DNA from: a virus
DNA: 20,269 bases
IMG/VR virus record: IMGVR_UViG_3300010885_033579
Coordinates: 1-20,269 of that record
Reading direction: 5' to 3' (one strand)
Below the pieces are notes generated by a model. It was given only the letters and a program-made list of their open reading frames with translations. It was not told the DNA's origin and did no database searches. Positions 1 to 19,744 of this stretch are shown one piece after another. Position numbers and translations under genes: made by a program. The first letter of the stretch is position 1. The number at the start of each line of letters is the position of its first letter.

Positions 1-317
1 CCTGTTCCAGAATTACCGTAAAATATAAATAATGGATCACCAAGTGGAACTGTAGGAGTTGGTGAAGGGGTTGGGGTTGGCGCAATAACCGACCATGTTG
101 TTGTTGTATTACAAGTACCTGTACTTGTAATTGTACCCCCTGTAATATTTTCAGGTGTAATATTGGTTACCGTATGTCCCGTTATTAGTTGTGCTTTAGT
201 TACTCCAGTTGCAATGGATACGGTATTTGATGCCCCTCCACTTGTTGTACCTGAAATATTAAACGGTCCGGCTGCTGTTGCTGAAGAACCTGCTGTTAAT
301 GTAAATGTTACTGTCAT
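1..317 (-). CDS. Fibre-like structural protein with Pro-Thr linker (5' part, cut by window edge)
   Basis: The minus frame is open from an ATG at 315-317 to the window edge, giving 105 residues; the 3' end lies outside. The protein begins MTVTFTLTAG, is rich in Thr, Ser, Gly and Ala, and residues about 1-76 look like one small beta module (a GPFN element, then GVTKAQLITGHTV, ending STGTC). A Pro-Thr linker ([11 protein letters not shown]) follows, and then a new module starts (PLFIFYGNSG). This plan matches the linkers and Cys-ended modules of the 902- and 1744-residue proteins in the same cluster, so I read it as another tail appendage component. It begins 42 bases after the stop of the 1744-residue gene, and that gap carries a TATTTATA element. 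Reading frame, start and linker are seen directly; the role is inferred. The plus-strand ORF overlapping here is a shadow. Confidence 0.75.
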   Translation of the reverse strand, partial: MTVTFTLTAGSSATAAGPFNISGTTSGGASNTVSIATGVTKAQLITGHTVTNITPENITGGTITSTGTCNTTTTWSVIAPTPTPSPTPTVPLGDPLFIFYGNSGT

Positions 318-359: not shown

Positions 360-3300
360 TTATAATGGACTTCCGCAATCACCTGATCCTGAGTAAACTC
401 CCGAACTACTAATTGTACCATATGTGTTACCATCTGAGAAATATCTACCACGACCGTTAAATACACTACCATTCACATTGTAATATGTTGTACCACCGTC
501 TAATGTAGTTGTAGTATAACTGTATATAGTGAATGGTACCCCGTTTCCTTGGAAGTTATTACAAGCTGAATTAAATGTATTTGAATCTCCTGCAGTACCT
601 GATGCAACCAAGAATGAATATGGTGGTGTTGCGTCAGCAGTTGCAGTTGGTGCAGGTACTGGTGTTGATGTTGGTGCAGGTACTGGTGTTGATGTTGGTG
701 GAACAGGTGTACTAGTTGGTGTTGGTGTTGGTGTAGGACAAGATAAACAAGCACTTAATACATCAACTACTTGAGAACCATAAGTCAAAGATATTTGAAC
801 TACACTTCCGTTAAAGTTAATATAATAAAATCCTGATGCTTGATATGCAAATGTATTACCTGTAAAATAAGAACTATTACAGAATGATATTCCGTCTCCA
901 TGTACAATTCCACTACTACCTGACCCATAAGGACATACACTATCTATTGTTGAACCATAATATATTGTTCCACCAAATTGTACCGGTGTTGATGTTGGAG
1001 GTACCGGTGTTGATGTTGGAGGTACCGGTGTACTAGTTGGTGGTACAGGAGTTGGAGTTGGTGGAACAGGTGTTGATGTCGGTGGTACCGGTGTACTAGT
1101 TGGTGGAACAGGAGTTGGAGTTGGTGGAACAGGAGTTGGAGTTGGTGGAACAGGAGTTGGAGTTGGTGGAACAGGTGTTGATGTCGGTGGTACCGGTGTT
1201 GATGTCGGTGGTACCGGTGTACTAGTTGGTGTTGTTGTTGCGGTTGGTGTAGGTGTTGCCGTAATAACATTAACGTTCACACTAAAATTACAATTAGGTG
1301 TAGCTGTTGGTGGTACTGGTGTACTAGTTGGTGTAGGAGTTGGGGTTGGAGTTGGTGTTGGAGTATGTGTCGGTGGTACCGGTGTACTAGTTGGTGGAAC
1401 AGGTGTTGATGTCGGTGTACTAGTTGGTGGTACTGGTGTTGATGTTGGTGTAGGTGTTGCCGTAATAACATTAACGTTCACACTAAAATTACAATCAGGT
1501 GTTGCTGTTGGTGTACTAGTTGGTGTAGAACTTGGAGTTGGAGTTGGTGTTGGAGTTGGAGTTGGTGTTGGAGTATGTGTCGGTGGTACCGGTGTACTAG
1601 TTGGTGGAACAGGTGTTGATGTAGGTGGTATAGGTGTACTAGTTGGTGGTACCGGTGTACTAGTTGGTGTAGGTGTTGCGGTGATTATATTAACATCAAC
1701 ATTAAATCCACAATCAGGTGTTGCTGTTGGTGGTATAGGTGTACTAGTAGGTGTTGGAGTTGGAGTTGAAGTTGGTGTACTAGTTGGGGTTGGTGTTGGA
1801 GTTGCGGTAATTACAATAGTATCTACATTAAATCCACAATCAGGTGTTGCTGTTGGTGGTATAGGTGTACTAGTAGGTGTTGGAGTTGGAGTTGAGGTAC
1901 TAGTTGATGTAGGAGTTGGAGTTGGTGTTGCGGTAATAATATTAACATTCACACTAAATTCACAATTAGGTGTTGCCGTTGGTAATATTGATGTACTAGT
2001 TGGTGTTGGGGTTGGTGTCGGTGTTGCGGTAATAATATTAACATCAACTCCAAAACTACAATCTGTTGTTGGACTAGGTGTTGGTGTAGGTGTGGCCGTA
2101 ATAACATTTATATCAATTCCAAAACTACAATCTGTTGTTGGTGTGGGTGTAGGTGTAGGTGTTGCGGTAATTACAATGGTATCTACATTAAATACACAAT
2201 CAGGTGTTGAACTAGGTGTTGGTGTTGGTGTTGCCGTTATAATATTAACATCCACATCAAATCCACAAATTGGAGTTGAGCTAGGAGTTGGGGTTGGGGT
2301 ATGCGTTGGTGGTATAGGTGTACTAGTTGGTGTTGGTGTAGGAGTAGGGGTACTAGTTGGGGTACTTGTCGGTGTACTAGTTGGTGTTGGAGTTGGTGTA
2401 CTAGTTGGTGTTGGAGTTGGTGTTGGTGTACTAGTTGGTACTAAAGTTGCGGTAGGTGTTGGTCCAGGTTTATAAATTGCATGTCCATCTCCTAAATCAC
2501 AATTAACAACATCATTATTACCATAAACATCAATATTAAATAATAAATCTTTTGTTAATGTACAATCATTCGGTCCATATTTAAATGATGTTATTTTCAT
2601 TCTTTCTTCACCATTCTCATCTACATAAAAATCAACACTGATTATTTTTTTACGTAAATTTTTTCCTGTACCATCTATTTGGTTACCATAACCCATATCA
2701 ATTGCATATTGTGTTGATCCACTGATACCACTATATGATATTTTATTACCGTATTCGTTATTTTTACCGGGTTGATCAACAATAATATTAGAATATGTAC
2801 AACCGGTACAAGTGTTAATATAATCAACAGTACCTAAAATTGCCCTTTTCCATAAAAATTTGATTGCATCATAATTTGGATCTAATTGATTAGTTGATCC
2901 TCCGTTTAAATCATATAAATCAAAAATAGATTCGCTATTAGGTTCTTTATATAATCTCGCATGTGGTGTTGTTCCGCCCGTATATGTTGTATAACCACTT
3001 ATTAATACATATGTACTTGGGTCAGTTAATGAACCAACATATTCAACTCCGTCAATAATAAAACTTGGTAAAAATTGTATGTAACCATCATAACGATATT
3101 CACCTTTTAAATTTATTTCAGTTGAAAAATGAAATCGATTATCGGCCAGTTGTATTTCATAATGAAAGAAGTCAGCATAACCTGTTGGTGGTTCGGGGTA
3201 TACATATTCATTAACGATTAACGGTTGACACCCAAATTTATACTGATACTTTGGTCTTGCAAAAATATTATTCTCAATTAAATTACCTCCCGTCCATAAT

Positions 3301-5594
3301 GTTGTTGATGGTATAATTTGATCTATAACACTTGTCCAATATGGACTCATTTTTTCAATAAATAAATTTACATCTGAAAATCTATAAGGTGTAAAATCTG
3401 TATGAGATATATAGTCTTGATAGATGTCTTCTAAAGTAATATAATTTTTTTTATATTTTATCGTGTGTGAGTTCTTAACTTGTTCATGTAAAACTTTATT
3501 TACATATTCAACAAACGTCACACCTGTTTGTGGTAATAATTGATGATTACTACCAAATGATAATTCTAAATCTCTTGATTTACGATATATATCATAATCA
3601 ATAGCTTGTGCTGATGATAAATAAACTTGGATATTTTTACGGTTTAATATTAAACCTGAATTATCATTTAAGGATTCTATTTGACTATTGTCTATTATAC
3701 TTTCTAATCCAAAACCTAAATCAGTACCTGGTAGTGTCCTATATAGATCAAAATAATCTTCACCATATGTACGTGCACTATTTTTTGTAATAACAGTTTT
3801 TGTTCTACCTGTTAAAATAAATTGACCGTTTAATGTTGTACCGCTAGATAAATCGGTATCAATTACCATTGGTGATTTGTGGTCTGCGGTATTATCATAC
3901 CAACCTGATCCTTTTTGAAAAAAGTGTGTTGTTGATCCTGTAATTCCTTTAGGTAATAGAGTTATTAAATTAACAGGATAATTATCCAATGTTAACGTTG
4001 TACTACCTGTTGTTGATCCAGTATAATATGAGTAATAAGGATAAACAACATTATTAATTGTACCTCCTGTAGGTAAAAATACACCCGTTTTAATTATGTT
4101 TTTACCATTAACGGCATTATAAACATTAGTATATAAATCAGTTGTTTTTGGTAATGATGTTACTTTGTAAACATACTGATTAATTTTAATCATTGGTTCG
4201 GGAGCTCCCAAGAACCTTAAGAAAAATTCTAAAGATTGTCTAGTACCTTTTGATTTATAAATGTATGCTAAGTTTACTAATAATCTTCTATAAAATTCAA
4301 ATTCAGCATCCAATAAAGATGTTCCTGATACTAAACCTGGATATTGTTGTGATGTTTTTGTATATAGTAATTCATCTAATCCTTTTTCATCAATTAAATT
4401 AACTGTGTCAAGTCCTAAGGTATTTGCTAAATTTTTTAATAATACATCCGGTACGTTATTTATTCCATCATAACTTACATTTCTCATGTAAGCAATATTG
4501 TCTATGTATTTTTTAACATTATCAAATGATTGTCCATATAATTGAAATATTGCTTCCGCTTTTTGATCGGGACTATCAAATTCAAATAATTGAGGTGACG
4601 TTAAAAATCTTACAAACAAGTTTGATTTATAATCATCTATCTCATTTGCAATATCACTTAAATTTCTTAAATATTCGTCATACTCTAAACCGGCAATTTT
4701 AATGTTCCAACTATCTTTGGTTGATGTTGGCCAATTATAATTTACTGAAATTAATTCTGTTTTTGTTTGGTCGAAGCTATCTCTAGGTACTTTAAAACTT
4801 GCTGTATATATTGGTGACGTTTCTTTATTTAATAATGATTCTTCTAAATCATCCAAACCTTTAAAAAATTCTTCAACTATACCATCATTTGGTCTTAATA
4901 ATAAATCTAAAGAATATGTGGTACCAGTAAATGGTTTACCGATTACTTTTAATTTAATACTATTATTTACATTTGGTTCTGTATACGATACAATGTCATA
5001 TGTTTTATTTTCCACTAATAAAACATATTTCTTATATGAACTATAAAAATCTCTTATTGGGTTTATTGATTTATTTATATCTTTACTATTTGGTGTAACT
5101 ATTCTTACGCCAAAAGTGTTATAAATCATACCATATTCAACTTGAAATTCAGTGGTTTTGTTAAGATTATTATAACTAATATTTGTTGCCGTTAAACCAC
5201 TTACACTAATATAACTTTTTGAATCTATTAAAATTCCAGCTGGAAATTTATTAATTATATTCTTAGTAGCAACACCAAGTCTATTCTTTAATGATCCAAA
5301 TAACGATTTACCTGCATCATTTTTTCCTCCCTTAAATCTAATTTCTTTTTTTCTTTTTGCAATTTCATCTACTGATAATGATTCAGTTTCTTTTTTTAAA
5401 TCATCTAAAGTTAAAAAATCTGAAAATGGATTTGTTTTAAACTTCTTTGTATCTCTTTGTACAACCTGACTATCTAACGCAAAGTTCGTATTGGTCAATT
5501 GACCAGTTCCTGTGGTAATTTGGTTACCTACTAGATTGTCACTGAATGTATCAGCACCACTCGCAGCCTTACTTGGAACTTTGTATTTTGCCAT
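360..5594 (-). CDS. Giant baseplate/tail-fibre fusion protein with tail-protein-I-like region and repetitive Pro-Thr shaft
   Basis: This 1744-residue protein starts at an ATG overlapping the previous stop (TAATG). Residues about 320-480 are alpha-helical and resemble phage tail protein I: a segment ending [18 protein letters not shown] is followed by [16 protein letters not shown], as in the Y..KGT...(L)..FL...G signature of that family. Residues about 480-1040 are beta-rich and unrecognised. Residues about 1045-1540 are a Pro-Thr-Ser linker holding nine copies of a Cys-containing 14-residue motif, and an array of VPPTSTP heptads. Two small Gly/Tyr-rich modules with Cys near their ends follow (about 1541-1616 and 1655-1744), separated by a second [12 protein letters not shown] linker. 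I infer a baseplate-anchored protein whose C-terminal part projects outward as a shaft with terminal domains. The tail-I match is by eye and moderate; the repeats are certain. The 5'-most 1 kb codes the body, not the repeats. Confidence 0.85.
987..1232 (-). repeat. 21-base tandem array encoding heptapeptide [SP]TPVPPT
   Basis: Eleven full units and one partial unit of a 21-base repeat encode consecutive [S/P]-T-P-V-P-P-T heptads, just before the first C-terminal module begins at [10 protein letters not shown]. Units fall into two DNA types, one with GGTACCGGTG and one with GGAACAGGAGTTGGAG, in a mixed order that suggests unequal exchange or slippage between subtypes. Confidence 0.85.
1251..2267 (-). 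repeat. Nine-copy C-x-F-x-V-x-V ... ITATP motif array
   Basis: Nine 42-base units encode C-x-F-x-[VI/T]-[DN]-x-x-[VI]-[IV]-T-A-T-P. In translation order they lie at 2226-2267, 2157-2198, 2088-2129, 2019-2060, 1923-1964, 1797-1838, 1671-1712, 1452-1493 and 1251-1292. Successive spacings are 69, 69, 69, 96, 126, 126, 219 and 201 bases; the linker between copies grows toward the C terminus. Each copy has a single Cys followed by a beta-prone stretch such as [10 protein letters not shown]. Examples include [14 protein letters not shown] and [14 protein letters not shown]. Positions were read directly; the structural role is unknown. Confidence 0.9.
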
Positions 5595-6514
5595 TAGATA
5601 TTAGTAATTGTATCAAAGTTTAAAGTTTCATCGATATCGGTACGATTTTCTCTAACCTCATAAAGTGTTTCGTTAAAGTCGTCTTTAATCTCAAATAAGT
5701 TATATTGTCTGTATATGTTTTTATCTTTATCGTAAATTGTGTAAATACCCGGAGTAACCGCCTTAGTTTGGTTACCGTAAAGAGCATTTGCAAGTGTTGA
5801 AGCGTCGTGTTCAACCATATCAATTTGAATTGTTGTTGGATTAAGATATGTATTTGATAAAATAATCTTTTGACCTGGACTACCAATAAATGGAACCGTA
5901 TTTGGTTTATTTGATGGTGCTGATGAAGGTGTTACCGTCAAAAACATGAAGTTTGTGGCACCTTCACTATATTGATATCTTACTGATTTTTGTGTTGTTG
6001 TGTTTAAGTTTGCCGTTACAGGTGTACAATAAAAAGAAGATGTTACTATTTTATAGAAGTTAGGTAATTTCTTATTATCATTTGGGTTAATATATTCAAT
6101 TCTATATCCAACCAAACCTTGTGGTGTAAATTTGTTTCTATCCACAGATGGTACATTTGATAAATCTATTACAACTCCTCTTACAGATGGTAATGATGCT
6201 AAAACACCACAATCCATAACTGTTGTTTTAATTTGTTTTGGTCTTATATAAAGTGTGTATATACCTAAATTACTAAAATCTGCAGCGTTTAATTGTAAAT
6301 TATATAATCCCCCTAATATTTCAGTACCAACAGCCACCGTATCGGTTGTTGTTGTTCCTGTATGTAAAATAGGTGTTAAAACCTGATTTGACGTTAACTT
6401 CTTTAATGTTACTGCGGTTGTTGAGACTCTATCAGCCGCATAATGATATAGAATTTCTACGTCATCTGGTGATACATCTGCTGGTCTAACTATTCCATAA
6501 CTGCCGACACTCAT
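5594..6514 (-). CDS. Structural protein of the tail/baseplate module, unrecognised
   Basis: A 306-residue protein starting [21 protein letters not shown] do not recognise a family. It has no signal peptide, membrane helix or catalytic motif. Residues about 55-110 look beta-rich and compact ([20 protein letters not shown]), the middle is a Ser/Thr-rich beta region, and the C terminus ([20 protein letters not shown]) is charged and could form a helix. Its ATG overlaps the endonuclease stop (ATGA) and its own stop overlaps the start of the giant fibre gene (TAATG), so it is probably made with them. Size and place between large structural genes suggest a baseplate or fibre-attachment subunit, for instance a connector for the 1744-residue protein. 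That role is inferred from position only. Confidence 0.8.
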
Positions 6515-7299
6515 ACTATTTCTTTTTTAATTAATTTATTATTTCTTTTATCGACCACTAAAATTTGAACCGGCTTTATATTACTATTAACCCATTTAAT
6601 TTTTTCTAATTGATTAGTATCAATTTTATTTGACCATCTACTTTCTTTTTTACCAAGTAAAATTTCATATGTGTAATCTGATTTAATCTCTATATATGTT
6701 TTTTTATAGTCAAAATCAGGATAATATACACCATACGGAGTATTTACTGACTCACCTTTTTTAGGTAATTCTTTATTTTCAGATATAAGTTTTTCAATAT
6801 AAAATTTTTCATATGTTCCATCACAAGACAAATCTTTAACTACAAATGATTTACATACACCTCCTGTTTGTTTTCTCATACCACTTTTAGCTAATTTTTG
6901 TTGTGCTAATTTTAATATGTTTTTAACGTTATCACTTCTTTTTTTACCTATTTGTCTAAATGTTATAGATTCACCTTTAGTTCTTTTAAAATCTGAATTA
7001 TATATATATTTTTCTATAAAATGCAAATTTAAATTTAATTCTTTTGAGATATACGGTGATGTTTTACACTCATTAACATATAATTCTTTTATTTTATTTT
7101 TTTGTTCTTCGGATAATATTATTTTTTTACCATCACTTTTACCTTTTTTTAATAGATTTAAATCTTTAAGTAATTTATTAATTGGTAATTTACTCATATT
7201 AAATAATTTTCCTATTTGTTCGCAAGATAAATTTAAAACAGTATATTGGTGTACTATTTCATTAATATTGGTTTCAGTAAAAATTATCTTATTACTCAT
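6511..7299 (-). CDS. Putative free-standing homing endonuclease, PD-(D/E)XK type with HTH
   Basis: A 262-residue Lys/Asn-rich protein unlike its structural neighbours. Residues about 23-50 form a probable helix-turn-helix (LSCEQIGKLFNMSKLPINKL), and about 62-105 a second helical DNA-binding-like unit. Residues about 115-140 (GKKRSDNVKNILKLAQQKLA) recall NUMOD-type modules of phage endonucleases, weakly. The C-terminal part has the order expected of a PD-(D/E)XK nuclease: Glu164 in YEKFYIEKLI, Pro194-Asp195 in VYYPDFD, then Glu204-x-Lys206 in TYIEIKSDY. Such genes cut DNA and spread between phage genomes, usually sitting between conserved genes, as here. The gene is visibly richer in A/T than its neighbours. 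Its stop overlaps the next start (ATGA), and an 18-base gap with a TATTTATA element precedes it. A role other than homing, such as a group-exclusion nuclease, is possible. Confidence 0.75.
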   Translation of the reverse strand: MSNKIIFTETNINEIVHQYTVLNLSCEQIGKLFNMSKLPINKLLKDLNLLKKGKSDGKKIILSEEQKNKIKELYVNECKTSPYISKELNLNLHFIEKYIYNSDFKRTKGESITFRQIGKKRSDNVKNILKLAQQKLAKSGMRKQTGGVCKSFVVKDLSCDGTYEKFYIEKLISENKELPKKGESVNTPYGVYYPDFDYKKTYIEIKSDYTYEILLGKKESRWSNKIDTNQLEKIKWVNSNIKPVQILVVDKRNNKLIKKEIV

Positions 7300-8780: not shown

Positions 8781-11489
8781 TTAACTACAGATTGTATATG
8801 GTGATGTTAATACTTCATAACTATCAATTGATATGGTTTCGGTAATACAGAAAGGATCTTGACCTCCGCATTCAACAAATCCAGTTGTCACTACATCAAT
8901 ACTTTTTGTTGCCGTTCCGGTATTAATTACGATATCAAAACTTTCCGGTACAATTGCACCATAACAATATGTTCTTGTACCATATAATCTTATTGTTATA
9001 TTAGTTGGTGCAACACCTGAACTCATTGTTGCGGTTATTGTTGTAATTGTATTTGTATATGAATTACTCATACAAATTATTTGTTCAGTATTTTCACTAC
9101 TTGTAACATGAATACAATTAGGTGAATTAGTACTTGTTGGAGTTGGAGTTGGTGTTGAAGTTGGTGTCGCTGTCGGTATATTAGGTGCACATGCCGAATT
9201 AACAAGACACGATCCTCCAGATGTTATTGGATAATATTCTATTGCTTGTCCTAAATTATTATAAATAGACGGAACTGTTGATGAACAAAAATAAAATTGA
9301 AAATCTCCATCTCCTAAATAATATGACGGAATTTCATTTGTTGTCGTATAAGAACCTCCTGGTGGTGTGTATCCAACATAGTATCCTGATGGTAAGGTAG
9401 ATGAACCATTAATTACAAAAGAATAACAAGTACCTACCGATGTACTTGTTGGTGTTGGCGTTGGTGTTGGTGGTATAGGAGTACTAGTAGGTGTCGGTGT
9501 TGGGTCTCCTTCTGTTGTTGCGGTTGGTGTCGGTGTAGGAGTTGGAGTTCCTGTTGCGGTAGGAGTTGGGGTAGCTGTGGGTCCACAGCTATTTCCTGTT
9601 TTTAATAAATCACTTCCGCTAATAACTGTAACGGTATTATTAACAGCACAAACACCACTATATGGTAGAACTGAGAATGAATATACCCATGTTTGAGTAA
9701 AACAATCTTTATAATCTATTAATGAAGAATATTCGGTATTATTTACATAAACAAAACAAGCATTTTCATCATTTACAAGTCCACAAGACTTCCATGCGTA
9801 TAAATTATTTATAGAATAATTACTGTTAATAAAAACAATTGAAGTTATTATATTATTTTCAATTACTCCATAATATCTATTGGCTCCCAAATAAATTGTA
9901 CTTCCTGTACTTGTAGAATAGGCGGTATATGTGGTACCAAATATATATGGATTATCATCAACCCAAACGTCTAAAGGTGTTGCCGTACCATCAGTAATTT
10001 GATTAATCGTTTTATTACAAACTTTATTTATAACATCTGTTGCTGTAAGTCCGCTGTAAAATGGTATATTCGCCAATTTTATTTTAGATCTTGTTGGTAC
10101 ATAATATGGAGTATCTTGACATCTAGTGTATGTTGTTGTATCTACAACAATATTAGGTGTTCCTGGATTTGGGCTTGTTGTTGCTGTACTACCTGTTACC
10201 GAATAATAATAATGAGTATCATGACCATATACTATTTGTCCAATTGTAAAAGTATTAAGATTATATCTAACCGAATATTCAACTACATTTGCATCACAAC
10301 GTTTTAAATGATACCAATATTGTATAGCACCAGGTGTAGGAGTTGGCGTTGGTGTTGGTGTAGGTGTTGATCCAACAGGAGTAGTTGATGTTGGTAAAGG
10401 TGTCATAATAAGTCCTCCACCTTTTTCATAAAAATTAATTGTTTTGGTTAAATTAGTATCACTAATCCCTACTCTTTCACCTACTGTACTACCAGTTGTT
10501 CCAGTATATCTATATATTTGATATGTTCTTTCATAATTATCAAAATCAATTCTATAATACATATCACTTTCTTCTACAACTGTATGTCCTGTTGTAAAAC
10601 CTGAATTTGTAAAATCTAATATGTTTCCTGTTTTACCATTGAAAAACTTTGCTGTCATAAAAAATGTATTCATTCCATGATAATAAGGTGTTTTTTGATT
10701 TGGTTTATCATTTGGATTACTAATAACTTCGTATGTTATATTTGGATAATTAAATGTTTGTCCTGTCCAACCGACTAAAGGTGTTGTTCCGTTTGGTATA
10801 TTAACTTGTGTAATTTCATTTATTTCATTTATAAATAAAATTGTTCGTGTACTCCCCGTATTTGTAATATGATATTTATCCAAAGTTGTTGTACCACTTA
10901 GACTACTTTCAGCTAAAACAGTTTCGTCATCAAACCAAAACAAATACATATTTTCTTTATTTCTATAATTTGAACCAGTGAAGATTGGTAGATGAATATA
11001 ATATCCTGAATTTTCTGGTTCATAAAAAAATTTTTCTCCCAATGGTAAAGAAAGATTTTTACTATTAACAAATTTTCTATTTTGTCTTGTTGGTGGTTCA
11101 CATGATAATACGTAATTTGTTATTGTACCGGGTGTTTTATAAAATTCTAATCTAAAAAAACTTTCCGTTGATTGTCTTAACATTAATTCATTTTCTCGTG
11201 TTGTAATACCAATTTGACTATAATCTAAAACATAATTTGGTGTACTTCCTGTTGCGGTAAAATAAAATTTAAACCATATATCACATTGTTCCTTATTATC
11301 TAAGGTTGTTGATGAATATGGTCTATGGATATATCTAACTGTTTCGTAATTCTTTGCTGGATTGATAATGTCTTTTAAAACCTCTTTTTCAAAATCTACA
11401 AAGTTTTCTTCCCAACCTAAATCAGTTCTAAAATTTTGTTCAGTATTAATAACAAGATTTAAATTGGTGTTATTTTTTAATATTTCCAT
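8781..11489 (-). CDS. Modular tail appendage protein with three Pro-Thr linkers
   Basis: I choose the ATG at 11487-11489, giving 902 residues, because it overlaps the preceding stop as TAATG; a TTG two codons upstream is less likely. Residues about 1-360 form a beta-rich body containing several TGST/GTT turns. Linker 1 (about 362-386) is [15 protein letters not shown]. Residues about 387-633 form a Cys-bearing region with repeated Tyr-rich strands. Linker 2 (about 634-684) mixes [23 protein letters not shown] and TSTS. A short module (CYSFVINGSS...SACAPN) follows, then linker 3 (about 769-790) and a final module with Cys residues ending PYTICS. The layout is beads joined by flexible or extended linkers, as in the giant fibre protein. 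A tail fibre or decoration role is inferred; no receptor-binding or enzyme domain is recognisable. Confidence 0.82.
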   Translation of the reverse strand: MEILKNNTNLNLVINTEQNFRTDLGWEENFVDFEKEVLKDIINPAKNYETVRYIHRPYSSTTLDNKEQCDIWFKFYFTATGSTPNYVLDYSQIGITTRENELMLRQSTESFFRLEFYKTPGTITNYVLSCEPPTRQNRKFVNSKNLSLPLGEKFFYEPENSGYYIHLPIFTGSNYRNKENMYLFWFDDETVLAESSLSGTTTLDKYHITNTGSTRTILFINEINEITQVNIPNGTTPLVGWTGQTFNYPNITYEVISNPNDKPNQKTPYYHGMNTFFMTAKFFNGKTGNILDFTNSGFTTGHTVVEESDMYYRIDFDNYERTYQIYRYTGTTGSTVGERVGISDTNLTKTINFYEKGGGLIMTPLPTSTTPVGSTPTPTPTPTPTPGAIQYWYHLKRCDANVVEYSVRYNLNTFTIGQIVYGHDTHYYYSVTGSTATTSPNPGTPNIVVDTTTYTRCQDTPYYVPTRSKIKLANIPFYSGLTATDVINKVCNKTINQITDGTATPLDVWVDDNPYIFGTTYTAYSTSTGSTIYLGANRYYGVIENNIITSIVFINSNYSINNLYAWKSCGLVNDENACFVYVNNTEYSSLIDYKDCFTQTWVYSFSVLPYSGVCAVNNTVTVISGSDLLKTGNSCGPTATPTPTATGTPTPTPTPTATTEGDPTPTPTSTPIPPTPTPTPTSTSVGTCYSFVINGSSTLPSGYYVGYTPPGGSYTTTNEIPSYYLGDGDFQFYFCSSTVPSIYNNLGQAIEYYPITSGGSCLVNSACAPNIPTATPTSTPTPTPTSTNSPNCIHVTSSENTEQIICMSNSYTNTITTITATMSSGVAPTNITIRLYGTRTYCYGAIVPESFDIVINTGTATKSIDVVTTGFVECGGQDPFCITETISIDSYEVLTSPYTICS
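9122..9180 (-). repeat. Pro-Thr linker 3 of the 902-residue protein
   Basis: Encodes [19 protein letters not shown] between the two last modules of the 902-residue protein. On the plus strand it shows the same GTTGGTGTTG-type DNA as the shaft of the 1744-residue gene. Confidence 0.8.
9437..9586 (-). repeat. Pro-Thr linker 2 of the 902-residue protein
   Basis: About 50 residues of [37 protein letters not shown] and PTPTPTSTS, interrupted once by the acidic EGD. Part of it (STPIPPTPTPTP) is the same wording as in the shaft of the 1744-residue protein, and the DNA includes the shared GGAGTACTAGTAGG-like element. Confidence 0.8.
10331..10405 (-). repeat. Pro-Thr linker 1 of the 902-residue protein
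   Basis: Encodes [20 protein letters not shown] and further PT pairs, joining the N-terminal body to the middle Cys-bearing region. The PT run is pure and short here, unlike the complex shaft in the 1744-residue protein. Confidence 0.8.
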
Positions 11490-13399
11490 TAACAATTTGT
11501 TTTATTTCTATAATTATTAAATCCAATTAAACCATCATTTTTATTTATATATGTTTGTTCATTTCTTAAATAAAAATTAATATTTTTAATAATATAATGT
11601 GAATTATTCATAAATGGAAAATTTGTTCCGTTCCCTTCTTGATCAATGAAACCATGATCGTATAAATCTCTCCATTTCCAAAGTTTTTCAACATCATCAA
11701 AAATTGCATTCTCGGGTAAATCAATTAAAGTATGTGGTTGTGTTGCATCTAATTTTGAAGTTTCTATATATGGTGATAGTTCTCGTAATTTAATTCTATG
11801 ATGTGGTTGATAATAATATCCAATTTGATTGGATGGTGTTGCTCCTGAAAATATAACTTTTCCTGTGGTATCTACTACATCAATATCTTGTTTATGATTA
11901 AATAATCTTCTACCATCTCCTGTGTTTTTTCTATGTGAAAATTTATGGTATGTTTCACTTATAATTCTTTCTTTTATTTCACCTCTATTATATTCAACAA
12001 AGGCACCAGTTAAAATAGTATTTTTTGTAAGACCAGTTATTGTACCGCCAACAAATGTAAAACCAGATGTATTTCCTGTAAATGTTCTTGTTGGGTTTGT
12101 TGTCCCTGAAAAAATTTCTCTTGATGTATTTCCACTAAATTGATTATCGATCCAACTATCGTGGAAATTAAATTTATATCCTATTTTTGGTGGGTAATCA
12201 AAAAATCCATTTTCATTTTTAAAAATAACCGATACGTAAACTTCGGTTGGTGTATATCCTAAATTATTCGTTATTCCTGATAAATTAAAATTATTTTTAA
12301 AATCAAACAAAAGAGTTTCTTGTCTATTTCTTTCAACTAAAATATCATTTTCTTGTAATGTATTTTCAAATAATATTTTTCTTTCATCTTCCCATATTGT
12401 ATTTTCAAATCCAACTTTATCTAAAATATAATCGTCAATAGTTGTTAATGTTTTATGTTTATGTACGTAATATTGTGATGTTGTTCCTGAAATATTATTA
12501 ATGTCTTTACATCTTCTACCTAATACTACACTACTTAATGTTGTTCCTGACGTGAATTCACTTTTTAAAATATTAATTACATATTTTTCTGAATCATAAA
12601 TTTCGTTACCAACATTATCAATGTAGAATATTCTAAATTTTTCAGTATCTTTTGTTATTGGTATTGTATAAAATGTTTTACCTGTTGTTATTCCTGAATA
12701 TGTGGTATATGTTCCTCCTGATAAGATAATATATTCACCTTGACTTAATCCATGTTCTACTGGTGATGTTAAAGTATAATAATTTCCATTATCTTCAACT
12801 CTAAATGGTACACCATTACCGGCAACAAAATTAAAATTAGTTCCACCTGATAATGTGTAATTCATTGTAAATCCTGTATCTTGTCCATATACATAACTCA
12901 AATACAAATTCCAATTTTTATATGGTGCCTCCATTACGGTTGTAGATGTATGACCAGTAAATCTATTATTATTTGGTACAGACACGGTTGGTATATTATT
13001 GGGTACTCCAATTGTTGATCCTGATTTTATTTGTGGTATTTCTCTTTTAACATCATTTCTATGAAATGCAAATTCATTATAAGGCACAAACCCAATTGTA
13101 CTATCAGTTGTATTTTCACTAGTGCCGTCATTAACTAAATAAAAGTTTTTTAATAATGGTGTATAATCGGTATAACCAGAATACATATTTCTAAAAACCA
13201 TTTTTATTTTACCGTATATTTTATAGTTTATACTTTTATTTCTTTCTTCATTAAATAAATCTGCCAAATTTAAAATAATATCTTTATCACCTTCTCTTAA
13301 TAAAACTTCATCGTTCTCTAATTTAACATTGAGATTAAGATCTTGTTCGTCCGCCTTAAAATACCTTTTGGTAGGTAATAATATTTCTTTCTTTTCCAT
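11489..13399 (-). CDS. Baseplate-module structural protein, unrecognised
   Basis: A 636-residue protein starting MEKKEILLPTKRYFKADEQD, with start and stop both overlapping neighbours as TAATG. The N-terminal 90 residues are charged and contain an amphipathic stretch. Residues about 195-265 hold a beta module (VPFRVEDNGNYYTLTSPVEH, then GLSQGEYIILSGG and FRIFYIDNVGNE) of the kind seen in many phage tail proteins, where a HGLS.G(E/D) turn links strands. Residues about 310-360 are alpha-helical and charged. The C-terminal 150 residues contain His/Tyr/Arg-rich segments (FSHRKNTGDGRRLFNHKQDI) and end NYRNKTNC. It follows the gp25-like, gp6-like and 1330-residue genes, where T4-like clusters place gp8, but I see no sequence match to gp8. 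Structural baseplate role inferred from position. Confidence 0.8.
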   Translation of the reverse strand: MEKKEILLPTKRYFKADEQDLNLNVKLENDEVLLREGDKDIILNLADLFNEERNKSINYKIYGKIKMVFRNMYSGYTDYTPLLKNFYLVNDGTSENTTDSTIGFVPYNEFAFHRNDVKREIPQIKSGSTIGVPNNIPTVSVPNNNRFTGHTSTTVMEAPYKNWNLYLSYVYGQDTGFTMNYTLSGGTNFNFVAGNGVPFRVEDNGNYYTLTSPVEHGLSQGEYIILSGGTYTTYSGITTGKTFYTIPITKDTEKFRIFYIDNVGNEIYDSEKYVINILKSEFTSGTTLSSVVLGRRCKDINNISGTTSQYYVHKHKTLTTIDDYILDKVGFENTIWEDERKILFENTLQENDILVERNRQETLLFDFKNNFNLSGITNNLGYTPTEVYVSVIFKNENGFFDYPPKIGYKFNFHDSWIDNQFSGNTSREIFSGTTNPTRTFTGNTSGFTFVGGTITGLTKNTILTGAFVEYNRGEIKERIISETYHKFSHRKNTGDGRRLFNHKQDIDVVDTTGKVIFSGATPSNQIGYYYQPHHRIKLRELSPYIETSKLDATQPHTLIDLPENAIFDDVEKLWKWRDLYDHGFIDQEGNGTNFPFMNNSHYIIKNINFYLRNEQTYINKNDGLIGFNNYRNKTNC

Positions 13400-17445: not shown

Positions 17446-19278
17446 TTAAAATGTAGCCGTTCCTAATGTTTTAACCCTTACTTGGATGTCTTTGTTGGGG
17501 AATCTAATTTGAAAAATTTGATTTGACTTCATAAAAATAATGTTGTCTGATTGAGTAATTTCTTTAGTTGTATTATCTTTATATGATTGTGTTGATTCCG
17601 CTGAAGAATACTCTCCTCCTATTTTATTATAAACTCTAGTCTCAATTACATTGACAACACCCGTTACACCACCGATAATTTTATTTAACGCTCCCACAAA
17701 TAATGGATCGCCCATTTTACGTTTAGTGTAATCAAAGTACTTTATTACATCTTCAATTACGGTTTGGACAATATCTGTTTGGTTTGCGTTCTTATCTATA
17801 TTTAAATCAATTTGTAATGCCATATCAATAACTTCACCACTTACGATATCTATGTAATCGTTGATCATTTTATATTCTGATAGATATGTTAAAATATTAG
17901 ATTTTAATGTATTAGATACTGTATCTGTTAAATTACCTTTATCGTCATATGACAATAATTTAATTCTAATCTTATTGTCCTCCTCCATAACATTAACTTT
18001 AGCTGGTGCTCCGTATGTGGATGGCATCGTTTCAATTAATGATTTATAATCGTTTAATGTAACTGCTCTATTTTGTGCAGCAAAGTTATATGAAACCATA
18101 TTACGAATTTCTTCTATAGTTGGAGCATCTGCACCACCAACTGCTGGAGTAATATTATTTACTCTTAACGATTGAACTACTTGTGTATTATATGACGCTA
18201 CAGGTCCTGAAACAATAAATTCAACGTCGTCCACGTTTGTTATAACATTAACCCCTAAATTACTATTTTTACCACCACCAACACGATATTTTACAAATAA
18301 AGTTGTGTTAAGTTTGGGTGTCGCACCTAATGATAAATTATTTAAATAACTAGCCAAATTAACTTTTAATTGACCAGTCATATAGTTATCCAAATTATCT
18401 AACGGATTAACCGTTCCAGACCCAAATGTTAGTGAAAAATAATTTTCAGGAGTATATTCAGTAACAAATTTATTATTTACATCTATAAATGTACCTGCGG
18501 TAAAATTATTTCTATCAGAAACCGCCGTAGGGTCTGATATAAAAACTTTATCTTGCATTAATGATTTAACCTCATACCATTTATTTGTTACACTTGTAAA
18601 CTCATTTGACGTCGGGTTACTAGCAAAATTTGTACCATCTTTATGTATAACTGATGTTACACCTAATACATTCTGTTCAGGTAAATATAATTTTAAAAAA
18701 GGTTTTTGATCAATTTGATTAATAACTCTCCTATAAATTTTACTAATACCATTAACAACAGGTTCTCTTTTTGTAATGGTATATGATATTGTTTTACCAT
18801 TTGCATTAAAATTAGGTATTTTTAATCTATTTGGTTCTCCCTTCTTATTGAATGGAACTGAAAAATCTATATCGTCTATGGTTTCAAATATTTGTCCTCC
18901 TCCCGAAACTTGTGCTCCCGCTTTTAATAAACCCAAATATCTTATATCTTCTTTATCACCTTGAACATTTACGGTTATTGAAAAATCACATAATGCAACG
19001 GATGGTCTAACACCTGGTAATTTTAAACCGTATGTTTTCGCAATATGATATAATGATTGTTTTTGTTGTGCAAAATCCAACATAGTTTCTTGCCAAACTC
19101 TATCAATATGAAAATGTAAATTATCTGCAACCGCCGCATTAATATCTAATAATACAGAATAAATTGACGCATCATTAAAATTACTAATTAAATCTGGATA
19201 ATAATTTTTAGTTAATGTTACCAATTCATCTCTTAGTCCTTGGAAATCTCTAGTTGCATATGATATCTGTTTGCTCAT
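17446..19278 (-). CDS. Baseplate wedge protein, gp6 / baseplate J-like family
   Basis: A 610-residue protein starting MSKQISYATRDFQGLRDELV. The N terminus has the family pattern: a short segment, then YYPDLISNFNDASIYSVLLD, INAAVADNLHFHIDRVWQET and a helix ending IAKTYGLKLPG, matching the F.d...s.l...l...A...d.l...id....E...A......A...G layout of T4 gp6 and P2 gpJ. The central-to-C-terminal part (residues about 390-590) carries NRAVTLNDYKSLIETMPSTY and GDPLFVGALNKIIGGVTGVV, typical of baseplate J proteins. Length is close to T4 gp6 (660). In the wedge, gp6 dimers form the ring that ties wedges together around the baseplate hub. It starts 1 base after the stop of the gp25-like gene, as gpJ follows gpW in P2. 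Best-supported assignment in the window together with gp25. Confidence 0.88.
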   Translation of the reverse strand: MSKQISYATRDFQGLRDELVTLTKNYYPDLISNFNDASIYSVLLDINAAVADNLHFHIDRVWQETMLDFAQQKQSLYHIAKTYGLKLPGVRPSVALCDFSITVNVQGDKEDIRYLGLLKAGAQVSGGGQIFETIDDIDFSVPFNKKGEPNRLKIPNFNANGKTISYTITKREPVVNGISKIYRRVINQIDQKPFLKLYLPEQNVLGVTSVIHKDGTNFASNPTSNEFTSVTNKWYEVKSLMQDKVFISDPTAVSDRNNFTAGTFIDVNNKFVTEYTPENYFSLTFGSGTVNPLDNLDNYMTGQLKVNLASYLNNLSLGATPKLNTTLFVKYRVGGGKNSNLGVNVITNVDDVEFIVSGPVASYNTQVVQSLRVNNITPAVGGADAPTIEEIRNMVSYNFAAQNRAVTLNDYKSLIETMPSTYGAPAKVNVMEEDNKIRIKLLSYDDKGNLTDTVSNTLKSNILTYLSEYKMINDYIDIVSGEVIDMALQIDLNIDKNANQTDIVQTVIEDVIKYFDYTKRKMGDPLFVGALNKIIGGVTGVVNVIETRVYNKIGGEYSSAESTQSYKDNTTKEITQSDNIIFMKSNQIFQIRFPNKDIQVRVKTLGTATF

Positions 19279-19279
19279 C

Positions 19280-19732
19280 TTAAATGTTTAATATTATAAA
19301 ATCGGATGTTGAAAATGATCCGTTATTTACACTGTATTCTATTTTAACTACCGCAGTATAAGGTTTTGTTGATTCTTCAGAAACCCTAAATAATCTTTGA
19401 TCTTCGTCTTGAGATACACTTCTATGTTGATCAGGGTCATCCTCAGCTGACATAATTGATATATTTGTAATTTCTAAATTTGGAATATATTTCTTTACAC
19501 CTTCTCTTATTTCTTCTTCAATTAAATTATGTGTAATAAAATCATTTTGATCAAAGATATATTCATATATTCTAGTACCAAAATCGGGTAAAAAATACCT
19601 ACTACCTTTCTTTGTTAAAATAAGGTGTATTAGGTTAGCCCTAACTTCTTTTTCAGGAACTTCTGTCATGTTAAGATAATCTCCCTTGGAGCTATCTCTA
19701 AATGGATAATCAATACCGTATGTTGTCGCCAT
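19280..19732 (-). CDS. Baseplate wedge protein, gp25 / gpW-like family
   Basis: I choose the ATG at 19730-19732 (MATTYGIDYPFRDSSKGDYL, 150 residues) over a TTG two codons upstream. The family signature is clear: after an N-terminal PF segment comes EKEVRANLIHLILTKKGSR, then YFLPDFGTRIYEYIFDQND, equivalent to the ...i...l.T..GeR...P.fG..l...lf pattern of gp25-like proteins. The middle carries an acidic, probably surface loop (SAEDDPDQHRSVSQDEDQ). gp25 is a small structural wedge subunit that contacts gp6 and the sheath initiator; it has a lysozyme-like name in some records, but no such activity is expected. It is followed 1 base later by the gp6-like gene, and preceded by a 30-base gap containing TATTTATT. 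Confidence 0.88.
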   Translation of the reverse strand: MATTYGIDYPFRDSSKGDYLNMTEVPEKEVRANLIHLILTKKGSRYFLPDFGTRIYEYIFDQNDFITHNLIEEEIREGVKKYIPNLEITNISIMSAEDDPDQHRSVSQDEDQRLFRVSEESTKPYTAVVKIEYSVNNGSFSTSDFIILNI

Positions 19733-19736
19733 ATTC

Positions 19737-19744
19737 AATAAATA
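19737..19744 (-). promoter_or_regulatory. TATTTATT element before the gp25-like gene
   Basis: Coding strand reads TTTATATTTATTGAAT and then ATG, so the element ends 4 bases before the start codon. It lies in the 30-base gap after the small cysteine protein gene. Same caveats as for the other copies. Confidence 0.3.

Follow-up and report, generated by a model that had tools for sequence, protein, structure and literature searches.

Triple β-spiral shafts occur in the adenovirus fiber, in reovirus sigma1, and in the P5 protein of phage PRD1. Pro-Thr linkers are familiar from bacterial surface proteins and from cellulosomal scaffoldins, where they act as stiff, probably disordered spacers between folded modules. 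In Agrobacterium phage Milano, inter-chain disulfides join tail, baseplate, and receptor-binding proteins (PMC10811340), and the Borg elements encode rapidly evolving TP-rich tandem repeats in extracellular-type proteins (PMC9879509). Here we describe a viral tail protein in which a short, Cys-containing, β-prone unit recurs on Pro-Thr linkers that tend to lengthen toward the C terminus. This unit is a real, widespread, and conserved repeat that is unnamed in the libraries searched.

The window, meaning the whole stretch of DNA that was analyzed, is a virus record of 20,269 bases in which all large genes lie on the minus strand. One of them encodes P0001, a tail protein of 1744 amino acids that carries the array (Table 1). 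A pattern count in this open reading frame returned nine matches to C.F.[VI][DN]..[VI][VI]TATP at residues 1110-1448 (window positions 1251-2267). This is the number of units given by the original prediction, and the start-to-start distances of 69, 69, 69, 96, 126, 126, 219, and 201 bases agree with it exactly. That prediction named no strand; the array is read on the minus strand. Its ground-state period is 23 amino acids (69 bp), and in about 80% of intervals D or N directly precedes the unit Cys. When the Pro-Thr region of P0001 was shuffled 2000 times, no shuffle contained even one match to the unit. A copy-number artefact of assembly appears an unlikely source of the array because identity within the repeat families of this region is only 60-85% and no long exact repeat is reported, units 8 and 9 with their shared 42 nucleotides being the exception.

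Table 1. Features of the P0001 locus, in window coordinates
Feature	Position	Strand	Basis
gp6/baseplate-J-like and gp25-like baseplate wedge genes	17446..19738	-	PHROG matches 5e-18 and 9e-16
gp6/baseplate-J-like wedge gene	17446-19278	-	PHROG
gp25-like wedge gene	19280-19738	-	PHROG
P0001, tail protein with array	360..5594	-	ORF; orthologs 43-79% identical over first ~1030 aa; no family match
Conserved head, residues 1-1034	2493..5594	-	Alignment of 33 sequences, 45-81% identity
Pro-Thr region containing array, residues 1045-1538	981..2462	-	
Unit 1, 14 residues	2226..2267	-	Pattern match
Unit 2, 14 residues	2157..2198	-	Pattern match
Unit 3, 14 residues	2088..2129	-	Pattern match
Unit 4, 14 residues	2019..2060	-	Pattern match
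Unit 5, 14 residues	1923..1964	-	Pattern match
Unit 6, 14 residues	1797..1838	-	Pattern match
Unit 7, 14 residues	1671..1712	-	Pattern match
Unit 8, 14 residues	1452..1493	-	Pattern match
Unit 9, 14 residues	1251..1292	-	Pattern match; 42 nt identical to unit 8
C-terminal Cys-containing module 1	738..980	-	About 80 aa, 4 Cys
C-terminal Cys-containing module 2	363..623	-	About 88 aa, 2 Cys

Two pattern searches of IMG/VR yielded 20 stretches and then 75, the latter from 63 contigs. The unit, whose consensus is [DN]-C-x-F-x-[VI]-[DN]-x-x-[VI]-[VI]-T-x-T-P, was found in other tail genes as well as in orthologs of P0001, at 1-18 copies per array (L136 is a single-copy example). Arrays can occupy two or three tail genes of a single phage, as in contig 3300042324_000950, a phage record with arrays in three neighboring loci. 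A bacterial origin of the unit was rejected: 84,980 bacterial and archaeal species genomes gave no real match, and the lone Spirosoma hit had no matching unit in an open frame. Among cultured phages, a tblastn search of a phage collection found no match for P0001 or for the array protein of L004, a test limited by its low-complexity filter, and the tail regions of immuto, Mel-JY01, and LR756508 contain no TPT-rich open reading frame. The picture that emerges is of an unnamed, widespread unit in a phage group whose cultured relatives appear to be without it.

Some array loci carry additional features. At L020 (7731-11552, minus strand), eight units come before cadherin domains and six copies of the SprB repeat (Pfam E 4e-39), known from the Flavobacterium gliding adhesin. 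This locus suggests Bacteroidota hosts and domain capture. Both L004 (7435-9324, plus strand) and L074 (5970-11888, plus strand) have a DDSGSMN stretch after the array that, by eye, resembles the von Willebrand A metal site (DxSxS motif). Genes for 2OG-Fe(II) oxygenases resembling prolyl-4-hydroxylase are present in 6 of 16 related phage records (those behind L008, L033, L051, L030, L093, and L106), and Mel-JY01 has an annotated prolyl 4-hydroxylase too.

The Cys of the unit is present in 370 of 370 distinct DNA units. Among 242 distinct peptides, Cys occurs in 100%, Phe in 99%, and Val or Ile at position 5 in 98%, and the final T-P is nearly fixed. Hydrophobic and polar residues alternate along the unit, with the polar positions varying among D, N, G, S, E, and T. 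Related phages thus keep the Cys and β-prone residues to which the original prediction had drawn attention, rather than generic Pro-Thr content only. The invariance of Cys is not an artefact of searching for it. When the Cys column was left out of the scoring, Cys was still found in all true registers; a pattern without Cys returned only loci that were already known; and in 80 loci fetched through a neighboring gene of 1330 amino acids, with no requirement for Cys, it was present in 40 of 40 units.

The 370 DNA units encode only 211 peptides, and one 14-mer peptide has 28 DNA spellings. Because synonymous sites vary in this manner, selection acts on the protein and not on the DNA, and a DNA-level element was ruled out. 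Units differ at 0-5 of 14 residues within arrays and at about 6-8 between arrays, and there is no positional orthology, which points to concerted evolution of the arrays in each lineage. The mean difference between adjacent units is 8.6 of 42 nucleotides, versus 9.6 for non-adjacent units. Derivation of the unit from the final strand of the head, which in some orthologs terminates in DC-x-F, was not supported: this strand was the top-scoring window in 13 of 75 heads, and in 3 of 75 when C and F were masked.

The strongest result is the recurring rise in spacing toward the C terminus. This spread had been noted for P0001 by the original prediction, and a comparison of spacing across related phages reveals it to be a recurring property that is not peculiar to this protein. 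Of 27 non-redundant arrays of at least five units, 26 show a positive rank correlation of interval with position, one has a value of zero, and none a negative value (mean 0.74). When 37 arrays were grouped by unit similarity into 13-22 lineages, mean rho was positive in every lineage (sign p 2e-4 to 5e-7), with the number of independent gradients uncertain because arrays within a gene family share ancestry and undergo local duplication. Spacing rises in all 23 arrays of P0001 orthologs, in 11 of the 13 arrays of other genes, and also in arrays of at least four units from the neighbor-gene set (L156, 51 to 119; L116, 29, 35, 41, 47). Periods range overall from 23 to 119 amino acids. Spacing has a sharp minimum at 23, the shortest interval that is common (19-21 is rare), and a second mode at 29, and these two values dominate; among close relatives, the differences amount to 6 or 12 residues (L060/L063, L037/L053) or to entire units or linker steps. 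An array need not be graded, as some are uniformly spaced, for example that of L021, with eight intervals of 23.

Unit age is argued against as the cause of the gradient because adjacent units do not become more divergent toward the C-terminal end. Specifically, a model in which new units are added at the N-terminal end and the older C-terminal units have slipped linkers was rejected, since the first half shows a divergence of 9.3 and the second one of 8.3 (Wilcoxon p 0.098), which is the opposite direction.

The expectation of the original prediction that the unit belongs to no named repeat family also held, with none above the curated cut-off in Pfam, NCBIfam, or PHROG. P0001 itself has no match in these three libraries, an alignment of the array produced only scattered chance matches with one or two members, and a profile of 11 arrays gave no match to PDB sequences at E up to 1. 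The unit is likewise not described in the literature searched, although absence there is weak evidence. An AF2 monomer of L021, the most regular array, reached a pLDDT of 45 and a pTM of 0.37 (the other four models, 26-41), and this best model is a solenoid-like intrachain ladder in which nearly all units of 23 residues contain two short strands. Foldseek found no PDB match for it with E below 3, and its non-significant neighbors include solenoids (pectate lyases, SufB/SufD). There is no conserved Asp at fixed polar positions, as would be needed for calcium rungs of the RTX type. Metal rungs more generally, which the original prediction had raised beside Cys cross-links, are weakened because the polar positions are so variable.

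The unit does share an FD(V/L)D(L/V)xVV string with the FxLD lanthipeptide leader (NCBIfam TIGR04363), against which L021 scores 25.1, below the cut-off of 30, with no single stretch passing. A LANC_like cyclase is missing from 14 array-phage records, all of them fragments, in a search that found its control, and a search for Lant_dehydr_N (LanB dehydratase), run without a positive control, gave no match anywhere. Lanthipeptide-like modification seems unlikely, and the likeness is probably a convergent β-strand pattern. In summary, the array works like a fiber shaft or linker element that we assign to no family.

P0001 lies downstream of the two baseplate wedge genes, whose presence in the same gene cluster marks a T4-like contractile-tail module. 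The wedge protein is 27-29% identical to its counterparts in Flavobacterium phage immuto, Microcystis phage Mel-JY01, and an uncultured 484-kb phage, and immuto and Mel-JY01 are the nearest cultured relatives by this protein. The array-bearing phages are uncultured T4-like phages that probably infect Bacteroidota. P0001 orthologs share the head of about 1030 amino acids, for which AF2 gave a pLDDT of 56 overall and about 80 at residues 101-320; a fold search with this model against the PDB found no significant match. Judging from gene context, the head is probably the part attached to the baseplate. In orthologs L057, L069, and L088, it closes with a cousin motif, DC-x-F-[ST]-G-G-T-x-x, that is tandemly duplicated.

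Beyond the head, orthologs diverge. The array is present in many and missing from others, and in ortholog L002 (3-4307, plus strand) it is replaced by several modules of roughly 80 amino acids, each with at least two Cys, joined by Pro-Thr linkers. Among all loci compared, a copy of module 1 (79% identical) exists only in L050/L079, which represent one other lineage, and module 2 has no relative in any of them. Cys makes up 2.65% of the array and 2.94% of the end modules of P0001, versus 0.48% of the head. The array therefore sits between a constant head and variable, Cys-rich end modules. From this layout and the gene context, we infer that P0001 is an attachment protein with a constant head, an optional tether, and a variable end.

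Other genes in the window display related traits. A 904-aa tail protein (8781-11495, minus strand) consists of Cys-containing modules joined by Pro-Thr linkers and has no Cys-strand units. The start of the next gene (3-317, minus strand) encodes an N-terminal domain common to L001 10662-11165, followed by a Pro-Thr linker, and L001 and other loci contain series of such adaptor-like genes. Between two tail genes is a weakly HNH/homing-endonuclease-like gene (6511-7299, minus strand; PHROG HNH E 0.0014, Pfam RE_endonuc E 0.033). The same junction in L001 is a gap of only 24 bases, so this gene looks like an insertion.

We propose, with a probability of roughly 0.4, that the array acts in a tail fiber or adhesin-like protein as a tether stapled at intervals, with β nodes strung on Pro-Thr linkers. 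The tether would run from the conserved head, which is probably attached to the baseplate, to C-terminal recognition modules that can be swapped. Each unit would be a single short β strand, with Cys, Phe, Val, Val/Leu, and Val/Ile on its hydrophobic face and polar residues on the other. Because a lone strand cannot fold, it presumably pairs with the equivalent unit of neighboring P0001 copies, and the small β nodes of the resulting oligomer might be closed by disulfides once the virion leaves the reducing cytoplasm. Linkers of at least nine residues, probably in polyproline-II conformation, would hold the nodes apart. Perhaps close spacing near the head keeps the chains in register and the base stiff, and longer spacing near the tip gives freedom to the recognition modules. 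The original prediction suggested a trimeric or intertwined shaft with Cys cross-links, in which linker length may tune reach. By analogy, such a stapled-node model seems reasonable, because Cys is enriched in the array and end modules and because the Milano tail provides a precedent for disulfide closure. An invariant Cys alone is no proof of a disulfide, and it could instead reflect metal binding or modification.

Counting against stapled nodes is the best AF2 model, which is an intrachain ladder and not an oligomer, with monomers the only state predicted. The ladder raises the somewhat unlikely alternative of a monomeric β-solenoid, in which units of the same chain would stack, with the Cys/Phe strand as one face and T-x-T as another short strand, and in which the Pro-Thr linker would serve as a polyproline-II return or loop out if long. 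Its two strands per unit, the solenoids among its Foldseek neighbors, and a minimum spacing as sharp as a fixed return path would need are all consistent with this fold. However, the pLDDT values and the lack of a PDB match count against it, and linkers of up to about 100 residues (L156) are unlike solenoid coils. It is also conceivable, but unlikely, that each unit docks as an extra strand onto the open β sheet of a partner, be it another tail protein, a chaperone, or a host component, and that the array is a multi-site tether recruiting several copies of this partner. Such a role would suit a motif that is short, strongly conserved, and set apart on linkers of disordered type, and it would fit the wide range of copy number, the single-copy cases, and the spread over several tail genes per phage. 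Yet graded spacing would then have no obvious role, and the invariant Cys would be needless unless bonded to the partner.

If the array were a spacer only, duplication and slippage would expand the Pro-Thr linkers, concerted evolution would carry the units along, and the gradient would be an accident inherited from one ancestral array. The greater likeness of units within arrays than between them, the step-like differences between close relatives, and the orthologs without an array would fit this history. We nevertheless consider it quite unlikely, and for the unit itself it is already disfavored, given that Cys is invariant despite free synonymous variation, that the divergence of adjacent and non-adjacent units implies old rather than freshly copied arrays, and that the gradient appears in different genes and all unit lineages with divergence not tracking position. 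Alternatively, nodes near the head may nucleate the zipping of chains and have to stay close, with later nodes tolerating linker slippage of 18 bp, such that the gradient would be an unselected by-product of assembly kinetics. The dominant intervals of 23 and 29, the differences of 6 or 12 residues between close relatives, and a gradient without an age signal agree with relaxed constraint of this kind, but length distributions alone cannot separate it from positive selection, and we regard it as very unlikely. The selected counterpart is a functionally graded shaft, in which the order of linker lengths would encode the passage from a tightly stapled base to a looser tip with redox-closed Cys β nodes, and in which the gradient would be rebuilt in each lineage. 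This is possible, though on the unlikely side.

With the array, an unnamed and widespread repeat is added to phage attachment proteins. The recurrence of the graded design in dozens of related phages and several tail proteins suggests a fiber linker that is tight at its base and loose at its end. If the gradient is selected, it would amount to a simple rule at the sequence level that allows a virus to encode graded stiffness along one chain. A stapled tether would also widen the cases of phage tails that are possibly held by disulfides. For annotation, the unit provides a signature of the tether that links the constant with the variable portions of tail proteins from metagenomic T4-like phages.

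The array resembles the triple β-spiral in having short repeated β units along a viral attachment shaft, with an N-terminal anchor and a C-terminal recognition part. Triple β-spiral repeats, however, follow one another without a break, measure about 15-20 residues each, and lack an invariant Cys, whereas the units here are predicted single strands separated by Pro-Thr linkers of 9 to about 100 residues with graded spacing. Compared with the linkers of scaffoldins and bacterial surface proteins, that of P0001 alone has a conserved Cys/Phe strand motif at ordered positions. Milano, like the phages considered here, has a contractile tail with Cys in its proteins, but its bonds join folded domains and involve no Pro-Thr linker repeat (PMC10811340), whereas P0001 has such linkers and its disulfides are putative. 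Finally, the Borg repeats are perfect, disordered, and devoid of an interspersed conserved Cys strand (PMC9879509), which is the very element that punctuates the P0001 array.
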